Source: Panopea generosa (Eukaryota; Mollusca; Bivalvia; Adapedonta; Hiatellidae). Taken from it: 64,000 nt of DNA. Of this stretch, positions 2,813 through 64,000 are shown piece after piece (positions within the stretch are counted from its first letter, which is position 1; every line of letters begins with the position of its first letter). A program made the position numbers and the translations under genes. The notes beneath the pieces were generated by a model that saw only the letters and a program-made list of their open reading frames with translations, searched no databases and was not told the DNA's origin. The stretch is from NCBI GenBank assembly GCA_029582155.1, contig CM055900.1:77730731-77794730 (forward strand), written 5' to 3'.

Positions 2813-4058
2813 CAGTGTTTTCTCGAGAGCGCGTTACTTGCGTTTTTTACTCAATTAAATCTCATTTGACGCAATCAAGTTTGTTCAGTGTGTCCATTAT
2901 GACGCAACCTTAAAAATACAGAAATTACACGCGTGTGTTTATTTACAATTGGCAAGTTGCTTTCAGAGTTAATTTTACAATGCTGGCTGGTTTGACAGAT
3001 CACGTGGTATGATTCAGGGAAATCCCAGTCACACGGTTCTATTAAGTTATGTAAACGTTTTATTTGTTATTTCCGCTATATTAATGCAATCCCATAGACG
3101 ATTATGAACACATACATAATTTTCCGCAAAGCCATAACAAATGATTGCTGCAACTCTTCCACTGATATAGGTTGTTTGTATAATAAAGATGAAATGTGGA
3201 AATTATGAATATTAAAAAAAAGTCATATTATTTGTTCAGATGATACTCTATCTGAAAATCTTTTTATTTTGTTTTTAATAAGGTATCGAGACACGCATGC
3301 GCGACATTTTCTTACCATTGTAAACATCCGCAGGTCAATATTTTACGACGACATTCCCTGTGCAGTTTATATTTCTTCAGCAGACGTTTAAGAGGTTATG
3401 GAAAAAAGAAATTAATAAAATGATTACATAATTTGTGAAATTTTATTATTTTTTAAGTTACCATTAAAATATCATATATAAGTTTTTATTTTAAGGTAAC
3501 ATTACTCTAAAATGAGTCTAGCTATGAGCCAGAAAAGAAATGCTTTTTGGAAAATGAACACAACAAAGTTTTGTTTACAAAGAGTATAAACCTTAGTAAC
3601 GCTAAAGATGTAGCTCAGCTGAAATATAAAAATATTGAAATTAATAATTTTAGTGTTTTTCATTAAAAATAGTAAGGGCCATGATGATTGAGCTTGGGCC
3701 ATGACATTTGAAAAGTTCATGACCCTGTGGCCATAATCATAACAAAGTTATGTTGCACTGTGCCATAAGGAAGGAAAAGACAAATAGTTTGTAGTTGTTG
3801 TAACTTGTTGCCAGGAGTGAAACATTCGTTAGAAGTTAAATAGTTTTGAAGCTGTTAACTCTAGTTTTGATTTTGAACTTTGTGTGAAACAGGAAGTAAA
3901 ACTGTTTAAGTAAAATGTCTTTTTTACCTCTATTTATTAAAATTGATTAAGTTTAAAACTAGTCAATTGATGACCCCAAGATTTTCAAAATGACCCCCAA
4001 ATTTTTAGTCAGTGGGTCGTCAATGACTCCAAAAAATTTGGAGCTGGAGAAAACACTG
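2813..4058. mobile_element. hAT-like non-autonomous DNA transposon (1246 bp)
   Basis: Terminal inverted repeats start CAGTGTTTTCTC at 2813 and end in its exact complement at 4058 (12 of 12, 14 of 15 when extended). Both sides are flanked by TAAATA (2807-2812 and 4059-4064), a candidate target-site duplication. The CAGTG ends suggest the hAT superfamily, although 6 bases is short for hAT (usually 8). No transposase frame is seen. It contains an NRF1-like GCATGCGC near 3297. Confidence 0.7.
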
Positions 4059-5531: not shown

Positions 5532-6655
5532 TGTGACTTACTCGTATCTATGGTGGGACTTAAATCTATGGCGGGACTTAATCGTATATTTGTTGGTACT
5601 TACTGAATATATTAATTGGGACTTGCTCATATCTATGATGTGACTTACTCATATCTATGGTGATACTTACTCATATATATGGTGGGACTTACTCATATCT
5701 ATGGTGGGACTTACTCATATATATATGGTGATACTTACTCATTTCTAGGGCGGTACTTACTCATATCTATGTAGGGACTTACTCATATCTATGGTGGGAC
5801 TTGCTCATATCTATGGTGATACTTACTCATATCTATGGCGGGACTTACTCATATCTATGATGGGACTTAATTGTATCTTATGATGGGACTTTACCATATC
5901 TATGGCGGGACTTAATCGTATAATTGTTGGGACTTACTGAATATCTTTGTTGGGACTTGCTTGTATCTATGATGAGACTTAATCATATCTATGGTGAGAC
6001 TTAATTGTATCTATGGCAGGACTTACTCATATCTATAATGGGACTTACTCATATCTCTGGTGATACTTACTCATATCTATGGAGGGACTTACTCATATCT
6101 ATGGTGATACTTACTCATATCTATGATGGGACTTACTCATATCTATAATGGGACTTACTCATATCTATGATGGGACTTACTCATATCTATAATGGGACTT
6201 ACTCATATCTATGATGGGACTTACTCATATCTATGGTGGGACTTACTCATATCTATGATGGGACTTACTCGTATCTATGATGGGACTTACTCATATCTAT
6301 GGTGGGACTTACTCATATCTATGCCGGGACTAACTCATATCTATGGTGATACTTACTCATATCAATGGTGGGACTTACTCATTTCTATGATGGGACTTAC
6401 TCATATCTATGATGATAGATACCCTTATCTATGATGATAGATACTCTTATCTATGGTGATACTTACTCATATCTATGTTGGGACTTACTCATATCTATGA
6501 TGGGACTTACTCAAATCTATGGTGGGACTTACTCATATCTAGGGGGGGGACTTACTCATATCTATGGTGGGACTTACTCATATCTATGGTGATGCTGACT
6601 CATATCTATGGTGGGACTTACTCATATCTATGATGGGACTTACTCATATCTATGG
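5532..6655. repeat. 22-bp minisatellite, about 51 copies
   Basis: Units read GGGACTTACTCATATCTATG and close variants, with GTGATACTTAC and loss-of-base variants scattered through. The period is not a multiple of three but three units are, so a stop-free stretch (6192-6434) appears by chance. Confidence 0.95.
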
Positions 6656-6968
6656 TGTGCACATTCACTAGAATTCACTTACATATGTGTAAGTAACAAC
6701 GCCACACTAGTATAATGCACCCATTAATTGTAACCCGTCCTCGCTAGACCGGGACATAGGGGACACTTTGACTTATCTCTCTGCATAACCCTGAGGTAAA
6801 GGGACACTAAGCTAAAAGCTTTACCTCTCCTCCCCCAGGACAGCTGTTGTTATTATAACTACTGTGTTAAGTTTGGTGGTGATCCGGTGAGAGCTATTAC
6901 AAACACAAGATCAAATAAAGACAATTCAAAGGCAGACATTTTACCAGGTTTTTTCCCCTAGTCATTTT
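6656..6968. other. Intron, nothing firmly recognised
   Basis: Contains a higher-GC patch near 6735-6900 (CCGTCCTCGCTAGACCGGGA) that reads like part of an old element, but I find no second copy in this window. Confidence 0.35.
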
Positions 6969-17975: not shown

Positions 17976-20900
17976 CGGTAATGACTAAGTATCAGACCCA
18001 GGGTTGGTTTCTAAGTTCCGGATTCAATTCTCCATCAGACCCCAGTAGTTGTATCCTGTAGCAAATCACATATTCCTTGTCAGCTAGGGACTTGGTTTTT
18101 GTGTGATATGGTGAAGGAGTATCAGACCCAGGGTTGGTTTCTTAGTTCCGGGTTCAATTCTCCATCAGACCCCAGTAGTTGTATCCTGTAGCAAATCACA
18201 TATTCCTTGTCAGCTTGGTACTTGGTTTTTGTGTGATATGGGGATGGAGTATCAGACCCAGGATTGGTTTCTAAGTTCCGGGTTCAATTCTCCATCAGAC
18301 CCCAGTAGTTGTATCCTGCAGCAAATCACATATTCCTTGTCAACTTCGTACTTGGTTTTTGTGTGATATGGGGATGGAGTATCAGACCCAGGATTGGTTT
18401 CTAAGTTCTGGGTTCAATTCTCCATCAGACCCCAGTAGTTGTATCCTGCTGCAAATCACATATTCCTTGTCAACTTCGTACTTGGTTTTTGTGTGATATG
18501 GTGATGGAGTATCAGACCCTGGGTTGGTTTCTAAGTTCCGGGTTTAATTCTCCATCTGACCCCAGTAGTTGTATCCTGCAGCAAATCACATATTTCTTGT
18601 CAGCCTGGTACTTGGTTTTTGTGTGATATGGTGATGGAGTATCAGACCCTGGGTTGGTTTGTAAGTTCCGGGTTCAATTTTCCATCTGACCCCAGTAGTT
18701 GTATCCTGCAGCAAATCACATATTCCTTGTCAGCTTGGTACTTGGTTTTTGTGTGACATGGTGATGAAGTATCAGACCCAGGGTTGGTTTGTAAGTTCCG
18801 GGTTCAATTCTCCATCAGACCCCAGTAGTTGTATCCTGCAGCAAATCACATATTCATTGTCAGCTTGGTACTTGGTTTTTGTGTGATATGGGGATGGAGT
18901 ATCAGACCCAGGGTTGGTTTCTAAGTTCCGGGTTCAATTCTCCATCAGACCCCAGTAGTTGTATCCTGCAGCAAATCACATATTCCTTGTCAGCTTGGTA
19001 CTTGGTTTTTGTGTGATATGGTGATGGAGTATCAGACCCAGGGTTGGTTTTTAAGTTCCGGGTTCAATTCTCCATCTGACCCCAGTAGTTGTATCCTGCA
19101 GCAAATCACATATTCCTTGTCAGCTTGGTACTTGGTTTTTGTGTGATATGGTGATGGAGTATCAGACCCAGGGTTGGTTTCTAAGTTCCGGGTTCAATTT
19201 TCCATCTGGCCCCAGTAGTTGTATCCTGCAGCAAATCACATATTCCTTGTCAGCTTGGTACTTGGTTTTTGTGTGATATGGTGATGAAGTATCAGACCAA
19301 GGGTTGGTTTATAAGTTCCGGGTTCAATTTTCCATCTGACCCCAGTAGTTGTATCCTGCAGCAAATCACATATTCCTGGTCAGCTTGGTACTTGGTTTTC
19401 GTGTGATATGGTGATGAAGTATCAGACCCAGGGTTGGTTTCTAAGTTCCGGGTTCAGTTCTCCATCAGACCCCAGTAGTTATATCCTGCAGCAAATCACA
19501 TATTCCTTGTCAACTTCGTACTTGGTTTTTGTGTGATATGGTGATGGAGTATCAGACCCTGGGTTGGTTTCTAAGTTCCGGGTTTAATTCTCCATCTGAC
19601 CCCAGTAGTTGTATCCTGCAGCAAATCACATATTTCTTGTCAGCCTGGTACTTGGTTTTTGTGTGATATGGTGATGGAGTATCAGACCCTGGGTTGGTTT
19701 GTAAGTTCCGGGTTCAATTTTCCATCTGACCCCAGTAGTTGTATCCTGCAGCAAATCACATATTCCTTGTCAGCTTGGTACTTGGTTTTTGTGTGACATG
19801 GTGATGAAGTATCAGACCCAGGGTTGGTTTGTAAGTTCCGGGTTCAATTCTCCATCAGACCCCAGTAGTTGTATCCTGCAGCAAATCACATATTCCTTGT
19901 CACCTTGGTACTTGGTTTTTGTGTGATATGGTGATGAAGTATCAGACCCAGGGTTGGTTTGTAAGTTCAGGGTTCAATTCTCCATCAGACCCCAGTAGCT
20001 GTATCCTGCAGCAAATCACATATTCCTTGTCAGCTTGGTACTTGGTTTTTGTGTGATATGGTGAAGGAGTATCAGACCCAGGGTTGGTTTCTAAGTTCCT
20101 GGTTCAATTCTCCATCTGACCCCAGTAGTTGTATCCTGCAGCAAATCACATATTCCTTGTCAGCTTTGTACTTGGTTTTTGTGTGATATGGTAATGGAGT
20201 ATCAGACCCAGGGTTGGTTTCTAAGTTCCGGGTTCAATTTTCCATCTGACCCCAGTAATTGTATCCTGCAGCAAATCACATATTCCTTGTCACCTTGGTA
20301 CTTGGTTTTTGTGTGATATGGTGATGAAATATCAGACCCAGGGTTGGTTTCGGAGTTCCGGGTTCAATTCTCCATCAGACCCCAGTAGTTGTATCCTGCA
20401 GCAAATCACATATTCCTTGTCAGCTTGGTACTTGGTTTTTGTGTGAAATGGTGATGGAGTATCAGACCCAGGGTTGGTTTCTAAGTTCCGGGTTCAATTT
20501 TCCATCTGACCCCAGTAGTTGTACCCTGCAGCAAATCACATATTCCTTGTCAGCTTGGTACTTGGTTTTTGTGTGATATGGTGATGAAGTATCAGACCCA
20601 GGGTTGGTTTTTAAGTTCCGGGTTCAATTCTCCATCAGACCCCAGTAGTTGTATCCTGCAGCAAATCACATATTCCTTGTCAGCTTGGTACTTGGTTTTT
20701 GTGTGATATGGTGACTGAGTATCAGACCCAGGATTGGTTTCTTATTTCTGGGTTCAATTCTCCATCAGACCCCAGTAGTTGTATCTTGCAGCAAATCACA
20801 TATTCCTTGTCAGCTTGGTACTTGGTTTTTGTGTGATATGGTGACTGAGTATCAGACCCAGTGTTGGTTTCTTAGTTCTGGGTTCAAATCTCCATCAGAC

Positions 20901-23900
20901 CCCAGTAGTTGTATCCTGCAGCAAATCACATATTCCTTGTCAGCTTGGTACTTGGTTTTTGTGTGATATGGTGATGAAGTATCAGACCCAGGGTTGCTTT
21001 GTAAGTTCCGGGTTCAATTTTCCATCAGACCCCAGTAGCTGTATCCTGCAGCAAATCACATATTCCTTGTCAGCTTGGTACTTGGTTTTTGTGTGATATG
21101 GTGATGAAGTATCAGATCCAGGGTTGGTTTGTAAGTTCCGGTTTCAATTCTCCATCAGACCCCAGTATTTGTATCCTGCAGCAAATCACATATTCCTTGT
21201 CAACTTCGTACTTGGTTTCTGTGTGATATGGTGATGAAGTATCAGACCCAGGGTTGGTTTGTAAGTTCTGGGTTCAATATTCCATCAGACCCCAGTAGTT
21301 GTATCCTGCAGCAAATCACATAATCCTTGTCAGCTTGGTACTTGGATTTTGTGTGATATGGTGATGAAGTATCAGACCCAGGGTTGGTTTGTAAGTTCTG
21401 GGTTCAATTCTCCATCTGACCCCAGTAGTTGTATCCTGCAGCAAATCACATATTCCTTGTCAGCTTGGTACTTGGTTTTTGTGTGATATGGTGAAGGAGT
21501 ATCAGACCCAGGGTTGGTTTCTAAGTTCCGGATTCAATTCTCCATCAGACCCCAGTAGTTGTGTCCTGCAGCAAATCACATAATCCTTGTCAGCTTGGTA
21601 CTTGGTTTTTGTGTGATATGGTGATGGAGTATCAGACCCAGGGTTGGTTTCTAAGTTCCGGGTTCAATTCTCCATCAGACCCCAGTAGTTGTATCCTGCA
21701 GCAAATCACATATTCCTTGTCAGCTTGGTACTTGGTTTTTGTGTGATATGGTGAAGGAGTATCAGACCCAGGGTTGGTTTCTAAGTTCCTGGTTCAATTC
21801 TCCATCTGACCCCAGTAGTTGTATCCTGCAGCAAATCACATATTCCTTGTCAGCTTTGTACTTGGTTTTTGTGTGATATGGTAATGGAGTATCAGACCCA
21901 GGGTTGGTTTTTTAGTTCTGGGTTCAATTCTCCATCTGACCCCAGTAGTTGTATCCTGCAGCAAATCACATATTCCTTGTCAGCTTGGTACTTGGTTTTT
22001 GTGTGATATGGTAACAGAGTATCAAACCCAGGGTTGGTTTTTAAGTTCCTGGTTCAATTCTCCATCTGACCCCAGTAGTTGTATCCTGCAGCAAATCACA
22101 TAATCCTTGTTAGCTTGGTACTTGGTTTTTGTGTGATATGGTGATGAAGTATCAGACCAAGGGTTGGTTTCTAAGTTCCAGGTTCAATTCTCCATCAGAC
22201 CCCAGTAGTTGTATCCTGCAGCAAATCACATATTCCTTGTCAGCTTTGTACTTAGTTTTTGTGTGATATGGTGACTGAGTATCAGACCCAGGGTTGTTTT
22301 GTAAGTTCCAGGTTCAATTCTCCATCAGATTCCAGTAGTTGTATCCTGCAGCAAATCACATATTCCTTGTCAGCTTGGTACTTAGTTTTTGTGTGATATG
22401 GTGACTGAGTATCAGACCCAGGGTTGTTTTGTAAGTTCCAGGTTCAATTCTCCATCAGATTCCAGTAGTTGTATCCTGCAGCAAATCACATATTCCTTGT
22501 CAGCTTCGTACTTGGTTTTTGTGTGATATGGTGATGGAGTATCAGACCCAGGGTTGGTTTCTAAGTTCAGGGTTGTATTCTCCATCAGACCCCAGTAATT
22601 GTATCCTGCAGCAAATCACATATGCCTTGTCATCTTCGTACTTGGTTTTTGTGTGATATGGTGATGGAATATCAGATCAAGGGTTGGTTTCTAAGTTCAG
22701 GGTTCAATTCTCCATCAGACCCCAGTAATTGTATCCTGCGGCAAATCACATATGCCTTGTCATCTTCGTACTTGGTTTTTGTGTGATATGGTGATGGAGT
22801 ATCAGACCCTGGGTTGGTTTCTAAGTTCTGGGTTCAATTCTCGATCAGACCCCAGTAGTTGTATCCTGCAGCAAATCACAAATTCCTTGTCAGCTTGGTA
22901 CTTGGTTTTTGTGTGATATGGTGATGGAGTATCAGACCCAGGGTTGGTTTCTAAGTTCCGGATTCAATTCTCCGTCAGACCCCAGTAGTTGTATCCTGCA
23001 GCAAATCACATAATCCTTGTCAGCTTGGTACTTGGTTTTTGTGTGATATGGTGATGGAATATCAGACCCAGGGTTGGTTTCTAAGATCCGGGTTCAATTC
23101 TCCATCAGACCCCAGTAATTGTATCCTGCAGCAAATCACATATTCCTTGTCAGCTTGGTACTTGGTTTTTGTGTGATATGGTGATGGAGTATCAGACCCA
23201 GGGTTGGTTTGTAAGTTCCAGGTTCAATTCTCCATCAGACCCCAGTAGTTGTATCCTGCAGCAAATCACATATTCCTTGTCAGCTTGGTACTTGTTTTTT
23301 TTGTGATATGGTAATGGAGTATCAGACCCAGGGTTGGTTTCTAAGTTCCGGGTTCAATTCTCCATCAGACCCCAGTAGTTGTATCCTGCAGCAAATCACA
23401 TATTCCTTGTCAGCTTGGTACTTGGTTTTTGTGTGATATGGTGATGGAGTATCAGACCAAGGGTTGGTTTCTAAGTTCCGGGTTCAGTTCTCCATCAGAC
23501 CCCAGTAGTTGTATCCTGTAGCAAATCACATATTCCTTGTCAGCTTGGTACTTGGTTTTTGTGTGATATGGTGATGGAGTATCAGATCCAGGGTTGGTTT
23601 GTAAGTTCCTGGTTCAATTCTCCATCAGAACCCAGTAGTTGTATCCTGCAGCAAATCACATATTCCTTGTCAGCTTGGTACTTGGTTTTTGTGTGATATG
23701 GTGATGAAGTATCAGACCCAGGGTTTGTTTGTAAGTTCCGTGTTCAATTTTCCATCAGACCCCAGTAGTTGTATCCTGCAGCAAATCACATAATACTTGT
23801 CAGCTTGGTACTTGGTTTTTGTGTGATATGGTGATGGAGTATCAGACACTTGGTTTGTTCCTAAGTTCCGGGTTCAATTCTCCATCAGACCCCAGTAGTT

Positions 23901-24735
23901 GTATCCTGCAGCAAATCACATATTCCTTGTCAGCTTGGTACTTGGTTTTTGTGTGATATGGTGATGAAGTATCAGACCCAGGGTTGGTTTGTAAGTTCCG
24001 GGTTCAATTCTCCATCAGACCCCAGTAGTTGTAGCCTGCAGCAAATCACATATTCCTTGTCAGCTTGGTACTTGGTTTTTGTGTGATATGGTGATGAAGT
24101 ATCAGACCCAGGGTTGGTTTCTAAGTTCCAGGTTCAATTCTCCATCTGACCCCAGTAGTTGTATCCTGTAGCAAATCACATATTCCTTGTCAGCCTGGTA
24201 CTTGGTTTTTGTGTGATATGGTGATGAAGTATCAGACCCAGGGTTGGTTTTTTAGTTCCTGGTTCAGTTTTCCATCAGACCCCAGTAGTTGTATCCTGCA
24301 GCAATTCACATAATCCTTGTCAGCTTCATACTTGGTTTTTGTGTGATATGGTGATGAAGGATTAGACCCAGGGTTGGTTTCTAATTTCTGAGTTCAATTC
24401 TCCATCAGACCCCAGTAGTTGTAGCCTGCAGCAAATCACATATTCCTTGTCAGCTTGGTACTTAGTTTTTGTGTGATATGGTGAAGGAGCATCAAACCCA
24501 GGGTTGGTTTCTAAGTTCCGGGTTCAATTCTCCATCTGACCCCAGTAGTTGTATCCTGCAGCAAATCACATAATCCTTGTCAGCTTCGTACTTGGTTTTT
24601 GTGTGATATGGTGATGAAGTATCAGACCCATGGTTGATTTCTAAGTTCCAGGTTCAATTCTTTAGCAGGACCAGGAGTTGAATCATTCAGCCACATTTTC
24701 ATCATCTGCTCAGTACTTGGTTTTCCCATGAAGAC
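17976..24735 (+). repeat. 130-bp satellite array, about 52 monomers
   Basis: The marker GGGTTGGTTT recurs exactly every 130 bases from 18001 to 24631 (51 intervals with no net indel). Conserved blocks are GTATCAGACCCAGGGTTGGT, CCGGGTTCAATTCTCCATC, CCCCAGTAGTTGTATCCTGC and GGTACTTGGTTTTTGTGTGA. The last monomer (about 24632-24735) is much more diverged. Blocks in the monomer resemble the B box and central region of the SINEs at 31.8-32.2 kb. Confidence 0.97.
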
Positions 24736-29334: not shown

Positions 29335-30967
29335 AGGGGATATGTATTGTGGTTATATAACAATGTAATATTTCTGTACAATGTTTGTTGATGTATTGTT
29401 GTTTTGTTACAATGTAATATTTCTGTACAATGTTTGTTGATGTATTGTTGTTTTGTTACAATGTAATATTTCTGTACAATGTTTGTTGATGTATTGTTGT
29501 TATATAACAATGTAATATTTCTGTACAATGTTTGTTGATGTATTGTTGTTTTGTTACAATGTAATATTTCTGTACAATGTTTGTTGATGTATTGTTGTTA
29601 TATAACAATGTAATATTTCTGTACAATGTTTGTTGATGTATTGTTGTTTTGTTACAATGTAATATTTCTGTACCATGTTTGTTGATGTATTGTTGTTATA
29701 TAACAATGTAATATTTCTGTACAATGTTTGTTGATGTATTGTTGTTATATAACAATGTAATATTTCTGTACAATGTTTGTTGATGTATTGTTGTTATATA
29801 ACAATGTAATATTTCTGTACAATGTTTGTTGATGTATTGTTGTTATATAACAATGTAATATTTCTGTACAATGTTTGTTGATGTATTGTTGTTATATAAC
29901 AATGTAATATTTCTGTACAATGTTTGTTGATGTATTGTTGTTATATAACAATGTAATATTTCTGTACCATGTTTGTTGATGTATTGTTGTTATATAACAA
30001 TGTAATATTTCTGTACCATGTTTGTTGATGTATTGTGGTTATATAACAATGTAATATTTCTGTACAATGTTTGTTGATGTATTGTTGTTTTGTTACAATG
30101 TAATATTTCTGTACAATGTTTGTTGATGTATTGTTGTTTTGTTACAATGTAATATTTCTGTACAATGTTTGTTGATGTATTGTTGTTATATAACAATGTA
30201 ATATTTCTGTACAATGTTTGTTGATGTATTGTTGTTTTGTTACAATGTAATATTTCTGTACAATGTTTGTTGATGTATTGTTGTTATATAACAATGTAAT
30301 ATTTCTGTACAATGTTTGTTAATGTATTGTTGTTTTGTTACAATGTAATATTTCTGTACCATGTTTGTTGATGTATTGTTGTTATATAACAATGTAATAT
30401 TTCTGTACAATGTTTGTTGATGTATTGTTGTTATATAACAATGTAATATTTCTGTACAATGTTTGTTGATGTATTGTTGTTATATAACAATGTAATATTT
30501 CTGTACAATGTTTGTTGATGTATTGTTGTTATATAACAATGTAATATTTCTGTACAATGTTTGTTGATGTATTGTTGTTATATAACAATGTAATATTTCT
30601 GTACCATGTTTGTTGATGTATTGTTGTTATATAACAATGTAATATTTCTGTACCATGTTTGTTGATGTATTTTTGTTTTGTTACAATGTAATATTTCTGT
30701 ACCATGTTTGATGATATATTTTTGTTTTGTTACAATGTAATATTTCTGTACCATGTTTGTTGATGTATTTTTGTTTTGTTACAATGTAATATTTCTGTAC
30801 CATGTTTGTTGATGTATTTTTGTTTTGTTACAATGTAATATTTCTGTACCATGTTTGTTGATGTATTTTTGTTTTGTTACAATGTAATATTTCTGTACCA
30901 TGTTTGTTGATGTATTTTTGTTTTGTTACAATGTAATATTTCTGTACCATGTTTGTTGATGTATTGA
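29335..30967. repeat. 49-bp tandem array, about 33 units, two variants
   Basis: Each unit has AATGTAATATTTCTGTACAA then TGTTTGTTGATGTATTG and a spacer that is either TTGTTATATAACAA (a perfect 14-base palindrome, type A) or TTGTTTTGTTACAA (type B). A block of 14 units (686 bp, 29351 to 30037) is duplicated with the same order of A and B types. Confidence 0.97.
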
Positions 30968-44229: not shown

Positions 44230-47160
44230 CTTTGGAGCGAAAGCATGATACAGTCGATCAAACGAGAACTTATAAGACTTAGTGTTTCACACTGGGGCAC
44301 AGCACAGTCCTTCGAACGAGAACCAAGCAGAGCTTCACACTTGGACACAGCACAGTCCTTCGAACGAGAACCAAGCAGTGCTTCACACTTGGACACAGCA
44401 CAGTCCTTCGAACGAGAACCAAGCAGTGCTTCACACTTGGACACAGCACAGTCCTTCGAACGAGAACCAAGCAGAGCTTCACACTGGGACACAGCACAGT
44501 CCTTCGAACGAGAACCAAGCAGTGATTTACACTGGGGCACATCACAGTCCTTCGAACGAGAACCAAGCAGTGCTTCACACTGGGGCATTGGACAAGAACC
44601 AAGCAGAGCTTCACACTGGGACACAGCACAGTCCTTCGAACGAGAACCAAGCAGTGCTTTACACTGGGGCACAGCACAGTCCTTCGAACGAGAACCAAGC
44701 AGAGCTTCACACTGGGACACAGCACAGTCCTTCGAACGAGAACCAAGCAGTGATTTACACTGGGGCACATCACAGTCCTTCGAACGAGAACCAAGCAGTG
44801 CTTCACACTGGGGCATTGGACAAGAACCAAGCAGTGCTTCACACTGGGGCACAGCACATTCCTTTGAATGAGAACCAAGCAGTGCTTTACACTGGGGCAC
44901 ATCACAGTCCTTCAACCGAGAACCCAGCAGTGCTTCACACTGGGGCATTGAACGAGAACCAAGCAGTGCTTCACACTAGGGCACAACACATTTCTTCAAA
45001 CAAGAACCAAGCAGTGCTTCACACTGGAGCTCAGCACAGTCCTTCGAATGAGAACCAAGCGGTGCTTTACACTCGGGCACAGCACTTTCTTTGAACGAAA
45101 ACCAACAAGTGCATCACACTGAGGCACACCACAGTCCTTCGAACGAGAACCAACAAGTGCTTCACACTGGGGCACTGCACAGTCCTTCGAACGAGAACCC
45201 AACAGTGCTTCACACTGGGGCACAGCACATTCCTTGAAATAAGAACCAAGCGGTGCTTCACACTGGGTCACAGCACATTCCTTGAAACAAGAATCAAGCG
45301 GTGCTTCACACTGGGTCACAGCACATTCCTTGAAACAAGAACCAAGCGGTGATTCACACTGGGGCATTGAACGAGAACCAAGCAGTGCTTCACACTAGGG
45401 CACAACACATTTCTTCAAACAAGAACCAAGCAGTGCTTCACACTGGAGCTCAGCACAGTCCTTCGAATGAGAACCAAGCGGTGCTTTACACTCGGGCACA
45501 GCACTTTCTTTGAACGAAAACCAACAAGTGCATCACACTGAGGCACACCACAGTCCTTCGAACGAGAACCAACAAGTGCTTCACACTGGGGCACAGCACA
45601 TTTCTTCAAACAAGAACCAAGCAGTGCTTCACACTGGGGCTCAGCACAGTCCTTCGAATGAGAACCAAGCGCTGCTTCACACTGGGGCACAGCACTTCCT
45701 TTGCACGAGAACCAAGCAGTGCTTCACACTGGGACACAGCACAGTCCTTCGAATGAGAACCAAGCAGTGCTTCACACTGGGCCACAGCACAGTCCTTCGA
45801 ACGAGAACCAAGCAGTGATTCACACTGGGGCACAGCACAGTCCTTCAAACGAGAACCAAGCAGTGCTTTACACTGGGGCACAGCACAGTCCTTCGAACGA
45901 GAACCAAGCAGTGCTTTACACTGGGGCACAGCACAGTCCTTCGAACGAGAACCAAACAGTGCTTTACACTGGGACACAGCACAGTCCTTCGAACGAGAAC
46001 CAAGCAGTGCTTCACACTGGGGCACAGCACAGTCCTTCGAACGAGAACCAAGCAGTGCTTTACACTTGGGCACAGCACAGTCCTTCGAACGAGAACCAAG
46101 CAGTGATTTACACTAGGGCACGTCACAGTTCTTCAAACGAGAACCAATCAGTGCTTTACACTGGGGCACAGCACAGTCTTTCGAACGAGAACCAAGCAGT
46201 GCTTTACACTTGGGCACATCACAGTCCTTCGAACGAGAACCAAGCAATGCTTCATACTGGGTCATTTAACAAGAACAAAACAGTGCTTCACACTGGGGCA
46301 CAGCACATTCCTTTGAACGAGAACCAAGCAGTGCTTTACACTGGGGCACAGCACATTCCTTTGAACGAGAACCAAGCAGTGCTTTACACTCGGGCACAGC
46401 ACAGTCCTTCGGACGAGAACCAAGCAGTGCTTTACACTCGGGCACAGCACAGTCCTTCGAACGAGAACCAAGCAGTGCTTTACACTGGGGCACAGCACAT
46501 TTCTTCGAACGAGAACCAAGCAGTGATTTACACTGGGACACAGCACAGTCCTTCGAACGAGAACCAAGCAGAGCTTCACACTGGGACACAGCACATTTCT
46601 TCGAACGAGAACCAAGCAGTGATTTACACTGGGACACAGCACAGTCCTTCGAACGAGAACCAAGCAGTGCTTCACACTGGGGCATTGAACGAGAACCAAG
46701 CAGTGCTTCACACTGGGGCACAGCACATTTCTTCAAACAAGAACCAAGCAGTGCTTAACACCTGGGCACAGCACAGTCCTTCAAACGAGAACCAAGCAGT
46801 GCTTGACACTAGGGCGCAGCACAGTCCTTCGAACAAGAACCAAGCAGTGCTACACACTTGGGCATCGACTGAGAACCAAGCAGTACTTCACATTGGTGCA
46901 CATCACAGCTCTTTGAACGAAAGCATGATACAATGCTTCATACTAGAGCCAATAAAGTGCTTGTAATAAGTGTACAACACAGTCCTTTGAACGAAAACAT
47001 GATACAATGCTTCATACTAGAGCCAATAAAGTGCTTCTAATTAGGGTACACCACAGTCCTTTGAACGAAAACACGATACGATGCTTCATACTAGAGCCAA
47101 TAAAGTGCTTCTAATTAAGGTACAACACAGTCCTTTTAGCGAAAACACGATACGATGCTC
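44230..47160. repeat. 48-bp minisatellite, about 55 units, with 74-bp edge units
   Basis: Units read CACAGCACAGTCCTTCGAAC, then GAGAACCAAGCAGTGCTTCA and CACTGGGG. Some 36-bp units (GGGGCATTGAACGAGAACC) are mixed in. The right edge has four 74-bp units carrying CGAAAACATGATACAATGCT, and the left edge has one similar unit. Long frames are open in several phases on both strands; the longest is 421 codons (45701-46966, plus). I read it as non-coding. Confidence 0.95.
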
Positions 47161-56360: not shown

Positions 56361-57387
56361 CTATATAACAAAGCATAATATATAATGTTATAAAAACAAT
56401 TCTGTATATCGATTTGATAATAGTAATCAAGTTCCGTTACTTATGTATTATTTATTATATTGTATTTAAAAAACTATAAATATTTCAGATACACAATGTA
56501 CTTTTAAATATATATCTTGTGGTCCATTTAATCTAAATCAAGTACAAAATGAATTTTATGTGAACAAAAATACAAATTATAATACTGCGACGCTTGCAAG
56601 GACACAGGGAAATGCTTTGATATCGAGTATTTCTCTCAAATTATTTTTAATTGGTGATATATTAAATATTAACTGTCAAGCCAACATTCATTTAACAATA
56701 TTTAGATGCTTAATTTACATGAACATTGATGGATATCATTTAACTATGATTAAAGCTTCGAGTGAAGTTATCTGACATTTTCAACACATTACATATACAT
56801 ATATGGGTGTGAATTTCAATAGAACGTTTTCTCTTTCAAATATGAATTCAGTGTTGACATTGAGTGATTTTGAGACAGCGCACTATAACACTCGGTCATG
56901 GAGGTCCCCACTACACCATCCCGATTTGTTATTATGCCATATCATATTATTTAAAGGTTTAATCTGTGTATTTCGAGATAAATATAAAATCAAAGGTGTT
57001 TAATAACAAGCTTGTTTGATAAAGTAAAATCAATCCAAAGTTAGTATGACCACCACAACAAAAGTTGATATATTTTTCAATTATAATACTGTTTTGATTT
57101 TTCATCAGAACTTCCAGTATTCATTTTAATTATTTAATCATCTCAAATGAAACCCAGTTATAATATAAATTTCCGAATTGTTGCCATCCTGCAATATTTT
57201 ACATTGCTATCTGATCATTATTTTCTATCTGCAATACTGCTAAACATAACAGATTTGCAAATTTATTTCTCTTTACCACTCTAATAGCCGTACATGTATC
57301 AGCCTATATGTCATTTCTGTTATATCTAATATATGGTGCTCATAATATCTGAAATACGTTTGCTGAAAGAATATTTTTCATAATTAC
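56361..57387 (-). other. Probable last intron of the RNF213-like gene (1027 bp)
   Basis: It is bounded by GT at 57387-57386 and AG at 56362-56361. The first part holds the read-through tail (VIMKNILSANVFQIL then TGA). The remainder is AT-rich with no further coding signal or repeat that I can see. Confidence 0.55.
57262..57267 (-). promoter_or_regulatory. Candidate intronic poly(A) signal
   Basis: AATAAA on the minus strand, 73 bases past the read-through TGA at 57340. If used, it would give a shorter transcript ending inside the last intron, with a different 15-residue C-terminus. The context is AT-rich, so chance occurrence is possible. Confidence 0.35.
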
Positions 57388-60300
57388 CTCAACTGCTGCC
57401 TCAATAGCAGTTACTGTGGCACGAACGTGTTTTACCATGAGATTGTCGGGAAGGAAAGTGACCATTTTAACAGTTACACCATCTACTTTTATACTCTCAC
57501 CAACAACAACTTTATCTGGCCAAAATGATTCGTCATTGAGGTAGCTGTACATTGTTCTTTCAGCGTCAGCGTCTCTCATAGAAAGACATCTATGCACAAA
57601 CCGTTTGATAGCTCTCAAAAGCTGTTTGGTATGGTTAATATGTTTATTGAATAACGTCTCAAATGAATCCTCCAATTTATCGTCAAGCTCTACACCAAAC
57701 TGTTCACCAAGTGCACCAATGATAGATTCAGAGTTAAGCTCTTCCAGCAATTCGTGTAATGATACAACATGGCAAAGTTTCACACATTGTTTTGGACTTG
57801 GAAGCAGCTCATTTGGCAATTTTCTTGTGAGAAGCAATTTCCATTCATCAGCATAGTCTATAAGAGCCTTCTCGGGGTCTCCTTTTGTTTTTTTCAACAA
57901 CGACATTATAACACCTAAATGTGTTAAAAGGTCTGTTGTCATTCGTGGATCATTCTCCTTTTGAGAAATAACTTTATCCACGATTTCAGTTGGAAGCTGC
58001 TTTTGTTTTACTTCTTTTTTTAATTCATTTACAAAATGAACATAGTTGACGTATAACTCATCAGTAAAAACTACCTGGGGTAAAGTTTGAAGGTTGATGA
58101 AGGACTTTCCAACAATTATCTCAATTGCTAAATCCTTTTCTATACGATAAAAATCATAAAACAATTTCCTTCCATGACCATATGATAACCCACACTGTGA
58201 TTGTTCAAGATAATCAGAGTCAAATTCAAAATCAATCAGATGCTGCTCACGCACTTCAGTGACCCATATACATGGTAAAACGGAAACCTCTGGTTCTCTC
58301 GTAAGAAAATGTACAGCGTTACAATATGGTGCTAATTCTAATGCACTGTCAAGAAAGTTGTTTTGGATTGAAACAAGATGCTCTAGCATCTTGTACACTA
58401 CGGAATCCATATCTAGCACCAGCACCTCGGATAATTTTGATCCTCCATGAACTCGATTGACTTTACCGATGCAGCCATTTCTTTGCAATGCATTCCACGT
58501 TTTTTCAAACGAATCAAACCGTTTTTTCATTTGTTTTTTCTTTTCCTCTTCCGAACCTTTTCGGTATATAAAGTCATCCACTGTCATGGTTGAACAGTCA
58601 TGTTTCTTCATCATATATTTTATATTAGACGCAGAAATGAGTACCCATTGCACGATATTCAATATATGAATGGGTAACTTTAAACTTTGCTCATGCTTCA
58701 ATACTAGTAGAAGGAACGGATATTTGTTTTTGTCTAACTGAACTTCAGAAACAAAATTCTCTTTTGTGGGTGTACTGTGTATTCTGAATAATGACGGCAG
58801 CATAACATCTTTGTATTCTTGTGACATAGAACTCATATCGTCATTTTCATGAATAGTCTTCTCTAACGAACACATAGAAAGGCCTTGAATCTTCGAATGT
58901 TGTCTGTTAATTTCATACATCATTTGAAAACGATTATCTATGAGTTTGTTTAAACTAGAAAGGAATTGACTTTCCCATTCGTCTCTTAATTCAGTTGAAT
59001 GTAAAGACTCGGTTTGCTCGAACAGCTGTGATCGTGTTTTGTACAATACTGTATGCAAAAAGAAGCCAATGCTGTTGTCTGGTAAATTCAAAAGTTGTGA
59101 CAGGTTCTGCCAGTGACACGATATTTCTTTCCATAAAGTAGCAGATACGTCTACCTCTTGAATTGATGTTACTTCCTCGAGGGACGTTGTATCTGTCAAT
59201 TGAAGAGCGAGCGATCCAAGAAGACACCCTTTGATGCATATACACAAAATATGACAAGCCACCGGGGACATTTGGCGTGCTCCAAAGTATACATTTGTCA
59301 TGCTTTCACATGTTGCATAGCCGCCACATATGTTTCTCTCTGATACACCACTGCATTCAGGTTTTATCAGTAACAAAGGCGCTTTACAAATAACACAACG
59401 GTCAACACGCCCACAGACAGATAGTCGGTAACCACACTGGCAAGTAATGAGATATGTTTCCTTCTGTTTCAGTGAAAAAATTTCATAAACAGTTAATGGC
59501 TGTACTTCATTCTCTGGAAAGCCTGGTAGAAAGCATTTCTTTAACTCCAATGGTTTTAGTAGACATGTTGTCAGAAAAGGCATCCCATTTCCTTTTGTAA
59601 ATGTGTAGAAGGAAAGCAACAATGCATATAGTGAAGACAAAAACGGATTTATCAAAGAGGAGAGAGAGTCAGCTTCTTCATTTTGCACCAGTTCTTGGAC
59701 TAGAAAATTGTTGGTACCGACTAAACCTTCCAAAAGAAATATGTTATTTCTTTTTGAAATGCCTTTGTTTTTTCTTAGAGTAGTATGACTATCGTCTACT
59801 AATAAGCTTGCTTGTGTTCTTCTTGAATCATTCATTGGCATATAGCTATTTGGAATGTAAAATTTCTTTAAGGCTACTGAATATAAAAGAATCATACCTT
59901 CTGTGCTTTTATTTGCCCGTTCGGTCAGTGACTTAATTTGACGTTTTAATGATCCGACATCTTTTGTTTCATCAAACAAAGTTGTTATATTTTGTTCGCA
60001 TGTTGGAACATATATACTCAATGGGCAACCTTCGAAGCATTCTTCTGGGTATGATTTTGTCCAACATATTCCCTGCATGAATGTCAGCTTCTCATTCAAA
60101 TTGCTACATGTGGCCTCTAGTTGGTTTAATACCTTATCCATTCCGATCACTTTAAGTAAGTATGTAAGCATAGCCTTATTAACAGTGTTTTCTCCACTGT
60201 CTTGAAAGACTCCATTAAGAGCAGCAATACAGTTTGGCGTCAAATTCCCGTCTTCAATATCTGACTTAAGTAAAAAAATAAATGCTTTGACGTATGCCAA

Positions 60301-63300
60301 GGCGGACATATACTGTATGCCAAAGCCTGTTTCAGTGAGAATTTTATGACAATGTAACAACGTTGAAAAGTCGTTAGTTTCGGCATGATTTTCACCATCT
60401 TCAAGTGATTCTCTGTAAATGTCTTCCAATATGTCCACGAGTAAGACAAGAAATGTGTTGTTTCCATCGCCAGTTTGGTGCATCTTTCTCAGGCAAATAT
60501 CTAAAGAACAGATAAACAAACAAGACTCTATACTATTAATATCTTCATCACATTCGCTATCCGCACATATTTCTTCAATTCCATCTTCTCCATTATCCGG
60601 CGTTTCATTGTCTCTGCTCCTTTCCAGAGTCTTGATTTTTTCCATATCACTGTCAGCTTCATCTTCACCATCTTTCTCTGTAGTCTTATCTTTATTTTCA
60701 TGTATTTCTTTATTCTCAGTGTCAGCTTTTGTAGGACATAAGGTTGCTTTGTCTTCTTCATTTTCGTCTTCATTATCACTAAACTCAGTGTTTGCTTTAG
60801 TTTTACTTTCGTCTTTCACACTAAGTGATGCTTTAAGCTCGCCCTTATATTGTAGAATATCCATAAATATTGTTTCATTCTCCTCTATTTCCGTCATCAT
60901 TGCTAAATACATGGGAAGTTTTAATAGAGAACAGTTGTTGTCAGGAAGAGTTCCATTTTCTGCTAACCTCAACAAATAATCAAATGCTTTTGTTTTGCAT
61001 GCTTTGTCTTTACTGTGAATAAAACATTTCAAACATCGAGTGATATAATTTGATAATGTCCGTTGGCACTTCATCTGTGATTCATCTGGTGCTATGTATA
61101 TGCTATTCATCACAGCCGTGAATATTTCCTCAGAATCTAAGCTATAATCTTGCTGTAAGTAGGTACCAATGATGCATATGTATTCAATGTCTAGTGAAAA
61201 TGGAATAACCAATTCCATAGCCACGTCATTGCAAAGGCGAAGGCCTTCTACAGATTTAGGTCTTTGCGATACCTGTGACACTAATGTAAGTACATTGTTA
61301 ACTATACTTTGCCATTGATGTATGTCATTATAACCTTTGAGGGTTTCTTTAGTTGGTAACATTATTTTACAAACAAGATCAACTAAGATATCATGAGGAC
61401 TGGCGGTATTACCATCGGGTAAACATTTTAAATATGTTGACTTAACAACAGAACATTTTTCAAAAGATTTATTCAGAGTTTTGACTTTTGCGACGTTTTT
61501 TGAGACACAACTTTCCTTTGTTTCGAATGCTCGGATGTTTTGATTGCTATTTTGTGCTATTTGTGGCGAGTGTTCATCAAACTGTTCATTTGTTGACTCT
61601 GTAGTTCTATCTGCAGTGATAAAAGTTGGCATTAAATGATCGTCACAGTTCAAAACTTCACAATCTCCTGGCATTTTCACATCAATATCTTCAATATTTG
61701 TAACTGGCATATGTGCTCCTAATTTGGCACTGACTGCTTCTTCCAAAACAGTGTTTTGTTCATAGTCAGTACTTTCAAAAGGTTCTAAAACTGATAAATT
61801 GTCAGTTGGTTCTTCACCAGGCATCTTTGTTGCGTGATGTATACTCGGTCTTTCTCGAGCAAAATCATCCTTTTCTATTGTTCCTGATAATTGTGACAAA
61901 TCAGCATCTAAGTCAAGCCTTCGATCCTCCATTTTCGTTATAGATTTCTCCAGTTCAGACATAGACTCCGTTCTATCTTGTCCAATTATTGTTCTGGTCT
62001 GATTTGTAATGGTATCTTGATTATTGTACATAAATGTTTGTTGGGGAATTTTAGATTCATTTTCCTCCTTTTCGTGTACTTCATTCAGTTGTTTACTGTC
62101 AGTTACCCTTGTGGCTTGACTTTCATTTGATTCCAAAACGCGATTTCCAAAAAATTCTTCGACTAAGATGTCACTATCGTCTTCGAACAAAATATCCCTA
62201 CACATCTCTAGTAGTTGCAGTTCGGCATTGAATAATGACGAATGGATCCAGAACGTTGAATGAAGTCGAACAAATAATTCCGATGGGTCTGTTGTAGATA
62301 GTGAAGTATTTTGAGAAATTGCCCATTTCATGTATTTCACTCTCTTTTCTCTTGGAAGTTTTGAACACACAGCGAATGACACAATGTTGCAGAAATCGTT
62401 AATATAGTCATCCCACCAGTTTTCATACAATTGTTGAATCCAATTCGGTGTTCTCTGCAGAATTACATTTTCTTGGTTTAGCATAAGAACTTCCAGTACC
62501 TCCTGAGGTACGTCTTCGTCGTCAGCCAAATCACATTTGCTTTTAAGAATAATAAGAGAATCCATGAACTCATCACGAGTAGATTCAATGCTATCAAATA
62601 GAAATACGCTAAACGGCATTTTTAAACAAAGATCCCTACTCTCGCAATTGAATGTTTCTGGTCCTGATTCATCCGGTACTTTACTGATTGAAAATGTATT
62701 TTCATTCTGAAGCACTGTATTCCAGAATGTTCTTCTGTCAAGCAAATGATTGTCCTCTTCAAAAAAACTGTCCAGTATGCTCATAACTTCCATCTGATAC
62801 ACTGTTTTTGAAAGAGGAACATTTATTGCATTCAGAATATGTCTTTCCAATGCATCCACTAATGTTGCTGACGTCACAAGTGCTTGAACATCACATGCCA
62901 CGTTTATTTGCCATTCAGTGTCGTGAATATCTAGACTATTAACACGAATCCATGAAAATATCCGACCATCGAGAATATTAAGTAGATCTTCCGATTGTTT
63001 AATTTTCTCCAAAATCGATTTTATACTTTCAACATTTCTACCTTGACTTCCATACCTGATTCTTGTAAATGTCCAAAACAGTCTTTCCCTAATGAGTTGA
63101 TGCAATGGTCTCTTTTTCTCTATGGTTTCATACAACGTGAGACTGCATAATTCCGGCAAAGGAGTTTGTGGTGATTCTAAGCAATCTAGCATAACTAATT
63201 TCCAACCAGAAAGGAAGTTTATCTGTGATACAATTCTAGATACCCCCTTACTTCTATCTACGTGAATAACTAAATATACATGCTTAACAACTTTAGATGA

Positions 63301-64000
63301 AGTTGTTTGAAATTCGTTTCTGTGGTGTTCAATAACAGATTTAGCCAGCATTATGTGTTTTTCATCATCTATTGCACTACATTGTAGATAGAGGATTTCA
63401 TCTTCTGATTCTAACCAAAAGTTTTGCATCCGTAACGACAGCTGTTTTTCTGATTTGAAGGCTCCGAGCTTGTCAATCTGTGTTTTTCTTTCTGACACAT
63501 TGTGTAAACCTTTTGTATGGATATTGCTGTTTGTGAATACTATGGTCATTAGGCCGTCGGTATTTCCATTTAACTTATCAAGTTGATATTGCAACAGATC
63601 TTTCATTCCACCATGTACTGGTAAATTGAAAAATTGCTCCTTGATATTTTCAGAGTCGCTTGCAATATTTGGATCTATTACTCTACACAGTCGTAAGACC
63701 GTCTCGGGTTTAATGATCCATAATAATTCTGTTTTGTATTGTGAAATTATCATGTCTTTGTTTTCATCGTCTGGCAATTCCTTATCAAACTTAAGAATAA
63801 GGGATGCGACCATGTCCTCGCTGTATATTGGAAAGGCATCCTTTTTTGTAAATGTTTTACCTTTTATATTGCAGAGTCCATCAATCCATCGTTCCAAATA
63901 CAATATTAGATCACTTTGTTCCTTGTTAAGAATATCGGCAAATCGTAGGTACTGCTTTTCAAATCTGTTCAAAAATGGGGGATCGGTATAATCAATTTTG
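57388..64000 (-). CDS. RNF213-like giant AAA+/E3-type protein, C-terminal half, one exon, 5' partial
   Basis: The frame is open to the window edge (nine more codons lie before the TTG at 63972), so the start is outside the window. Residues are numbered from 63972. The edge reads DPPFLNRFEKQ, typical of the end of the RNF213 AAA+ motor. Then come a helical stalk (about 20-600), an acidic/Ser-rich linker (about 605-850), a RING-position segment (about 914-960), a second acidic insert (about 1050-1147), an RZ-finger-like segment (C1511, C1513, C1520, C1526, C1529) and the RNF213 C-terminal region (about 1870-2195). RNF213 proteins are ubiquitin ligases active at membranes and lipid droplets in innate defence; that role is inferred here from the family. 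Most RING zinc ligands are missing and the RZ His is Tyr1515, so ligase activity is doubtful. The exon probably ends at a GAG|GTAATT donor after residue 2195; reading through adds 15 residues to a TGA at 57340-57342. It could be a paralogue rather than the RNF213 orthologue. Confidence 0.85.

Follow-up and report, generated by a model that had tools for sequence, protein, structure and literature searches.

The subject of this work is a gene for an RNF213-like protein of the bivalve Panopea generosa, located at the end of a 64,000-nucleotide stretch of contig CM055900.1 (positions 77,730,731 to 77,794,730) that was analysed whole and is called the window below. An earlier note, made from the letters of the window, had described a single long minus-strand reading frame whose product belongs to the RNF213 family, keeps the AAA motor, and carries a RING decayed in place together with an altered RZ finger. 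The long frame was confirmed, with a different extent: within the window it spans 2219 codons, from 63999 down to a stop codon at 57340-57342 instead of 57388, and it continues open past the edge of the window. Frame and paralogue searches covered the whole Panopea generosa genome (1.47 Gb, 39 contigs), in which the frame reaches 4220 codons without a stop (contig C7, about 77788070-77800730, minus strand); with stop triplets as frequent as in window bases 1-57000, the chance of such a length is about 10^-111. Residue n of the window protein corresponds to the codon starting at 63999-3(n-1), and the residue numbers of the earlier note are shifted here by +9. The features are as follows.

57340..63999, minus strand: last 2219 codons and stop of the 4220-codon frame (frame reading, genome search)
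62185..63999, minus strand: final portion of the AAA core, residues 1-605, starting near DPPFLNRFEK (Pfam, human RNF213 match)
61402..62184, minus strand: weakly conserved linker, residues 606-866, exceeding its length in the three relatives first aligned (alignment)
60835..61401, minus strand: E3-back helical bundle, residues 867-1055, predicted local distance difference test score (pLDDT) about 90 (predicted model)
61093..61233, minus strand: the "RING" of the earlier note, residues 923-969, predicted as E3-back helices with no zinc domain (model, alignment)
60538..60834, minus strand: acidic linker, predicted to be disordered, residues 1056-1154, pLDDT under 50 (predicted model)
57343..60540, minus strand: E3 shell, core, and C-terminal scaffold with the RNF213 fold, residues 1154-2219 (model, Foldseek, VIA)
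59386..59442, minus strand: finger interpreted as a degenerate form of RZ, CQCGYRLSVCGRVDRCVIC, residues 1520-1538 (sequence, alignment, profile comparison)
59413..59415, minus strand: C1529, followed by Gly, sole candidate for an RZ nucleophile inside the finger

The proposed family and the retained motor were both borne out. The AAA core matches human RNF213 (E 2.7e-135) and is of the RNF213-type, dynein-like kind, with two intact Walker A motifs, GETGCGKT and GKPGCSKS, in the same frame upstream of the window. The E3 scaffold (back, shell, and core) is present in the window protein. A putative E2-docking C-terminal domain would lie in the C-terminus, which is modelled with fair confidence, but the VIA match extends no further than human 4979. 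Among the matches listed (best 120 of 730), P0013 of Mercenaria mercenaria is the best-scoring protein against the window. The Pfam scan gave no CBM20 row, with the 5' end of the gene not determined and further upstream exons possible.

The letters on which the decayed RING had been built (C923, "CNDV", "SLD", and "SEEI") are present, and no RING was found; it is the decay in place that does not stand. Residues 923-969 are predicted to be entirely helical, and their motif, LRxCxD, is common to relatives that have no RING motif either: in the 115 aligned sequences, window included, L920 is kept in 111, R921 in 97, C923 in 104, and D925 in 99. By range arithmetic, this segment would correspond to about 3914-3960 in human RNF213, which is ahead of the RING (about 3995-4053). 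The disordered acidic linker, as judged from end-to-end ranges and the RING limits, falls near the estimated RING slot of vertebrate RNF213. The 4220-residue frame contains no motif of a C4HC3/C3HC4-type RING inserted in the E3-back and no Pfam RING, which answers the earlier call to look for an intact RING elsewhere in the protein. Strict and loose RING motifs, searched over full length, were found in 0 of 239 relatives, fungal ones and a few partial ones included, and both motifs match a RING exon of Panopea generosa. These relatives come from the best 120 of 730 matches to a RING-less Dreissena protein and the best 120 of 168 to a fungal protein; since they are the sequences most similar to these two proteins, RING-bearing members are under-sampled by design. 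One fungal relative, P0088, reads LRICNE in its E3-back stretch and has neither RING nor finger, with a gene model that looks scrambled. As the motif is missing in all 239, a RING was probably never present in this branch.

The genome holds at least six such single-frame loci, spanning 3964 to 4381 codons (C7 near 77.79, 77.07, 50.41, and 50.29 Mb; C8 near 56.78; C19 near 11.56), which form one group on a tree of AAA cores with support 0.844 (198 cores found, those from the fungal search thinned to 40). It also contains exons of another kind, which point to vertebrate-type RNF213 genes: AAA4 exons at at least ten sites (only 16 of 505 candidates scored), RNF213-type RING exons at eight, and RZ matches at 24, part of which are probably ZNFX1. 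For seven of the eight RING exons, the same strand bears an RZ match 10-21 kb further downstream; AAA4, RING, and RZ succeed one another in this order on a single strand at six loci (C5 near 74.2, 78.1, 67.7, 66.7, and 66.9 Mb; C9 near 41.65 Mb). One RING exon reads CCNCEE...LPCTHLVCDLCYHE...CPKC; it scores 24.9 bits with zf-C3HC4_3 against a cut-off of 27, and among PDB sequences the RING of RNF213 itself is only a weak match (E 0.65). Because these matches are weak, it is gene position, not sequence, that ties this exon to RNF213. Two RZ matches at the vertebrate-type loci contain a stop, which may mean that part of the copies have suffered damage or that the match extends beyond the end of the exon. 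In a 72-residue piece of AAA4, the identity of three of these loci is 71.8% with human and 44.7% with the single-frame loci; the latter are 44.7% identical to human over the same piece and thus are not of the vertebrate type. Fungal AAA4 is closer to that of the single-frame loci in 95 of 95 comparisons (95 of 117 sequences taken in). Since AAA4 identities split the two kinds and the fungi side with the single-frame loci, we name two subfamilies, A (vertebrate-type) and B (the window gene and its kin). Based on similarity, not on a rooted tree, we infer that the RING-less state is ancestral. On contig C14, the canonical RZ fingers L009, L011, L016, and L018 look ZNFX1-like by eye, and further RZ matches lie at L010, L012, and L013; the C14 fingers suggest a second expanded RZ family in this species.

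In human RNF213, the metal ligands of the RZ finger are C4505, H4509, C4525, and C4528, with C4516 as the proposed nucleophile and H4537 as the proposed base (PMC11549300); mouse Cys4462 was mapped via probe cross-linking (PMC12075652). The window finger lies at the RZ position of the E3 module, with residue 1520 corresponding by range arithmetic to human 4508, close to C4505, and it is modelled with pLDDT of about 82-84. Its pattern is C-Q-C-G-Y...C-G...C-x-x-C, with C1520, Y1524, C1529, C1535, and C1538 where the earlier note had placed them. The reported shortening by two residues is also correct (C4505 to C4516 is 11 in human, nine here), and the next step is short as well (nine from C4516 to C4525, six here). 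The Cys-Gly is thus found at +9 instead of +11; there is a four-Cys core, in which the Cys at +2 is probably the fourth zinc ligand, and neither IGG nor a His nine residues after the last Cys. In the profile scan, neither the window protein nor its finger matched PF20173, and this family is not among the 25 listed of 51 families matched by 22 of 24 fingers (P0051 and P0035 were left out), while 8 of 8 fungal fingers tested as a control matched it. The finger is therefore altered, as had been claimed.

The finger could be aligned in 115 of 121 sequences (P0004, P0081, P0088, and P0114 do not match the anchor as written; P0068 and P0106 are too short after it). The CxC...CxxC form occurs in 70 of them, CxxC...CxxC in 15, a His form in three, and CxxC only in 14; of the 13 with none of these forms, six have almost no residues at the finger site, and four of these six are named Mytilus. 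IGG after CxxC is found in 0 of 115 sequences of the animal set, and [IV]GG in 59 of 117 fungal proteins. In 56 of 119 proteins of the fungal search, CxC is followed by Cys-Gly exactly 11 residues past the first Cys, as in human, and the +4 residue is never His in these 56. Tyr at the vertebrate His position is thus compatible with an RZ finger, and the change from His to Tyr, correctly noticed and given misplaced emphasis in the earlier note, was rejected as the key change. An hhalign comparison still connects the fingers of animal B members with those of the fungal RZ type (probability 95.2%), which makes a degenerate RZ finger the preferred interpretation of the animal form. As an observation in its own right, large sets of RNF213-like proteins, none with a RING motif, occur in Rhizophagus, Gigaspora, and similar fungi (P0121-P0237), which we take to be arbuscular mycorrhizal fungi and kin.

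The finger varies among the five Panopea generosa paralogues of the window gene. The position of C1529 is taken by Tyr, Gln, Arg, and Gln in four of them, and the fifth has no finger; Y1524 is matched by His in three and by Tyr in one, and Gly1530 is kept in two. The locus without a finger, C7:50.29 (L025, L029), is 79.6% identical in its remainder to its neighbour C7:50.41, and the nonsynonymous and synonymous rates between them (dN 0.11, dS 0.38) indicate purifying selection. Better arguments for a loss of RZ chemistry than the Tyr are that animal relatives show neither the catalytic Cys register nor IGG and that a close paralogue has dropped its finger.

Taken together, the window gene is probably intact and belongs to subfamily B, an ancient branch of RNF213 that has no RING, and its product would most likely serve as an ATP-driven scaffold or sensor with the RNF213 fold, without ubiquitin transfer through an RZ cysteine. 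The protein keeps both P-loops of its AAA core intact, along with the E3-shaped scaffold, whereas its RZ finger has shrunk to a four-Cys knuckle, presumably zinc-binding, that departs from the known catalytic Cys/His arrangement. It might act, for instance, by assembling with itself on membranes or on microbes. Family, fold, the missing RING motif, the departure from the RZ signature, purifying selection between two paralogues, and the coexisting RING and RZ exons of the other type are computed results; zinc binding, loss of ligase activity, and the scaffold or sensor role are inferred from them. A ligase-independent function is the simplest reading because the ATPase and scaffold are intact and RZ chemistry is apparently gone. 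Loss of the RING alone would not make a pseudo-ligase, since mouse RNF213 without its RING remains active (PMC7311170). Ligase-independent function does exist in the family, as vertebrate RZ mutants still coat Toxoplasma vacuoles (PMC11549300). Several points weigh against this reading. The same source reports that those mutants fail to coat or ubiquitylate bacteria. C1529-G1530 resembles the RZ nucleophile and might still react, and 14 of the 70 CxC fingers carry some extra Cys, so that other nucleophiles may serve. Among the 56 fungal fingers, just 33 have a His nine residues after the last Cys, which makes its absence from the window finger weak evidence, and 63 of 119 fungal-search proteins also have no RZ pattern, so RZ loss is not peculiar to bivalves. 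Several relatives are, moreover, unnamed or partial gene models.

The ideas of the earlier note (pseudo-ligase, regulator, or ligase with altered chemistry) remain sensible because loci with RNF213-type RING and RZ exons coexist in the genome; their decayed-RING part falls. That the protein is still a transthiolating ligase, in which a shortened RZ hairpin presents C1529 as nucleophile with altered chemistry, is unlikely: the Cys-Gly is present, with its Gly in two paralogues, the finger is modelled with fair scores, and the fungal RZ profile is matched, but C1529 itself is replaced or lost in all five paralogues, the register is off by two and three residues, and IGG is missing. A role as regulator or decoy of RING/RZ paralogues, for instance by co-assembly, would draw on the eight RING-exon loci, six with AAA4, RING, and RZ in order; the divergence of A and B over the AAA4 piece does not favour co-assembly, and we regard this role as rather improbable. 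A pseudogene could be suspected from an extra insertion and the long acidic linker, absent or shorter at that place in the five paralogues. This was rejected as very improbable, given the intact frame of 4220 codons and purifying selection, the proportions of nonsynonymous and synonymous differences to all five paralogues being pN 0.32-0.39 and pS 0.74-0.78 (pS saturated). Least credible, and likewise rejected, is a RING decayed at 923-969, for which one Cys and hydrophobic spacing give a loose resemblance, and against which stand the helical model, the same motif in RING-less relatives, and a position ahead of the human RING.

A broader scheme can be put forward tentatively, as a possibility: RNF213 would comprise two ancient subfamilies, A with RING and catalytic RZ, and B, RING-less since before the animal/fungal split, with the catalytic RZ kept in many fungi. 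In animals such as bivalves, B would be ligase-dead and expanded, beside true ligases, as single-frame giant AAA+ proteins acting as ubiquitin-independent, ATP-driven intracellular immune machines. The expansion or induction of RNF213 in symbiotic bivalves has been interpreted via lipopolysaccharide (LPS) ubiquitylation in PMC9993606 and PMC11299980. If many of those genes belong to subfamily B, that inference would fail for them because the residues known to be required for RZ transfer are missing. The series from fungal RZ-competent through bivalve RZ-degenerate to finger-less proteins would also offer natural material on RNF213 motor function without ligase activity, a question only touched by vertebrate mutants so far. 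Among the papers listed (in one search the best 25 of 9,147), from a library without bioRxiv preprints and most subscription papers, none describes a RING-less RNF213 subfamily of this kind in its title or opening abstract lines.

Elsewhere in the window there are four tandem arrays: a satellite at 17988-24661 (130-bp unit, 51 copies, 94% matches) and arrays at 44281-46864 (48-bp unit, 55 copies), 29342-30966 (49-bp unit, 33 copies), and 5535-6657 (22-bp unit, 51 copies). As 48 is a multiple of 3, overlapping frames stay open on both strands of the 48-bp array, with NENQAVLHTGAQHSPS-type repeats; they are probably not genes.

Among known systems, the RZ finger of ZNFX1 belongs to the same finger family and has a Cys/His dyad, but it is attached to a helicase rather than an AAA core, according to PMC12075652. 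Bivalve, abalone, and amphioxus proteins (within P0001-P0120), named RNF213, R213A-like, hypothetical, or uncharacterised, share the subfamily by alignment, the lack of a RING motif, and mostly a four-Cys finger. They differ in their linkers and in the Cys-Gly inside the finger; beyond that of CxCG, it is found in 2 of 87 fingers, the window and P0028 (ten flagged, eight discarded by eye). The fungal RNF213-like proteins (P0121-P0237; Rhizophagus, Gigaspora, Diversispora, and others), many of them annotated as "RZ-type domain-containing", share the CxC finger and the missing RING motif, whereas in many of them the catalytic Cys-Gly sits at the human register and [IV]GG follows CxxC, in the proportions given above. 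Vertebrate RNF213 (mysterin), an E3 ligase that in humans defends against infection, has in common with the window protein the AAA core, two P-loops, the E3-back/shell/core fold, and a finger in the RZ position. It differs in possessing both a RING and the catalytic RZ Cys/His arrangement, while the window gene, one 4220-codon frame, belongs by its AAA4 piece to a separate subfamily.
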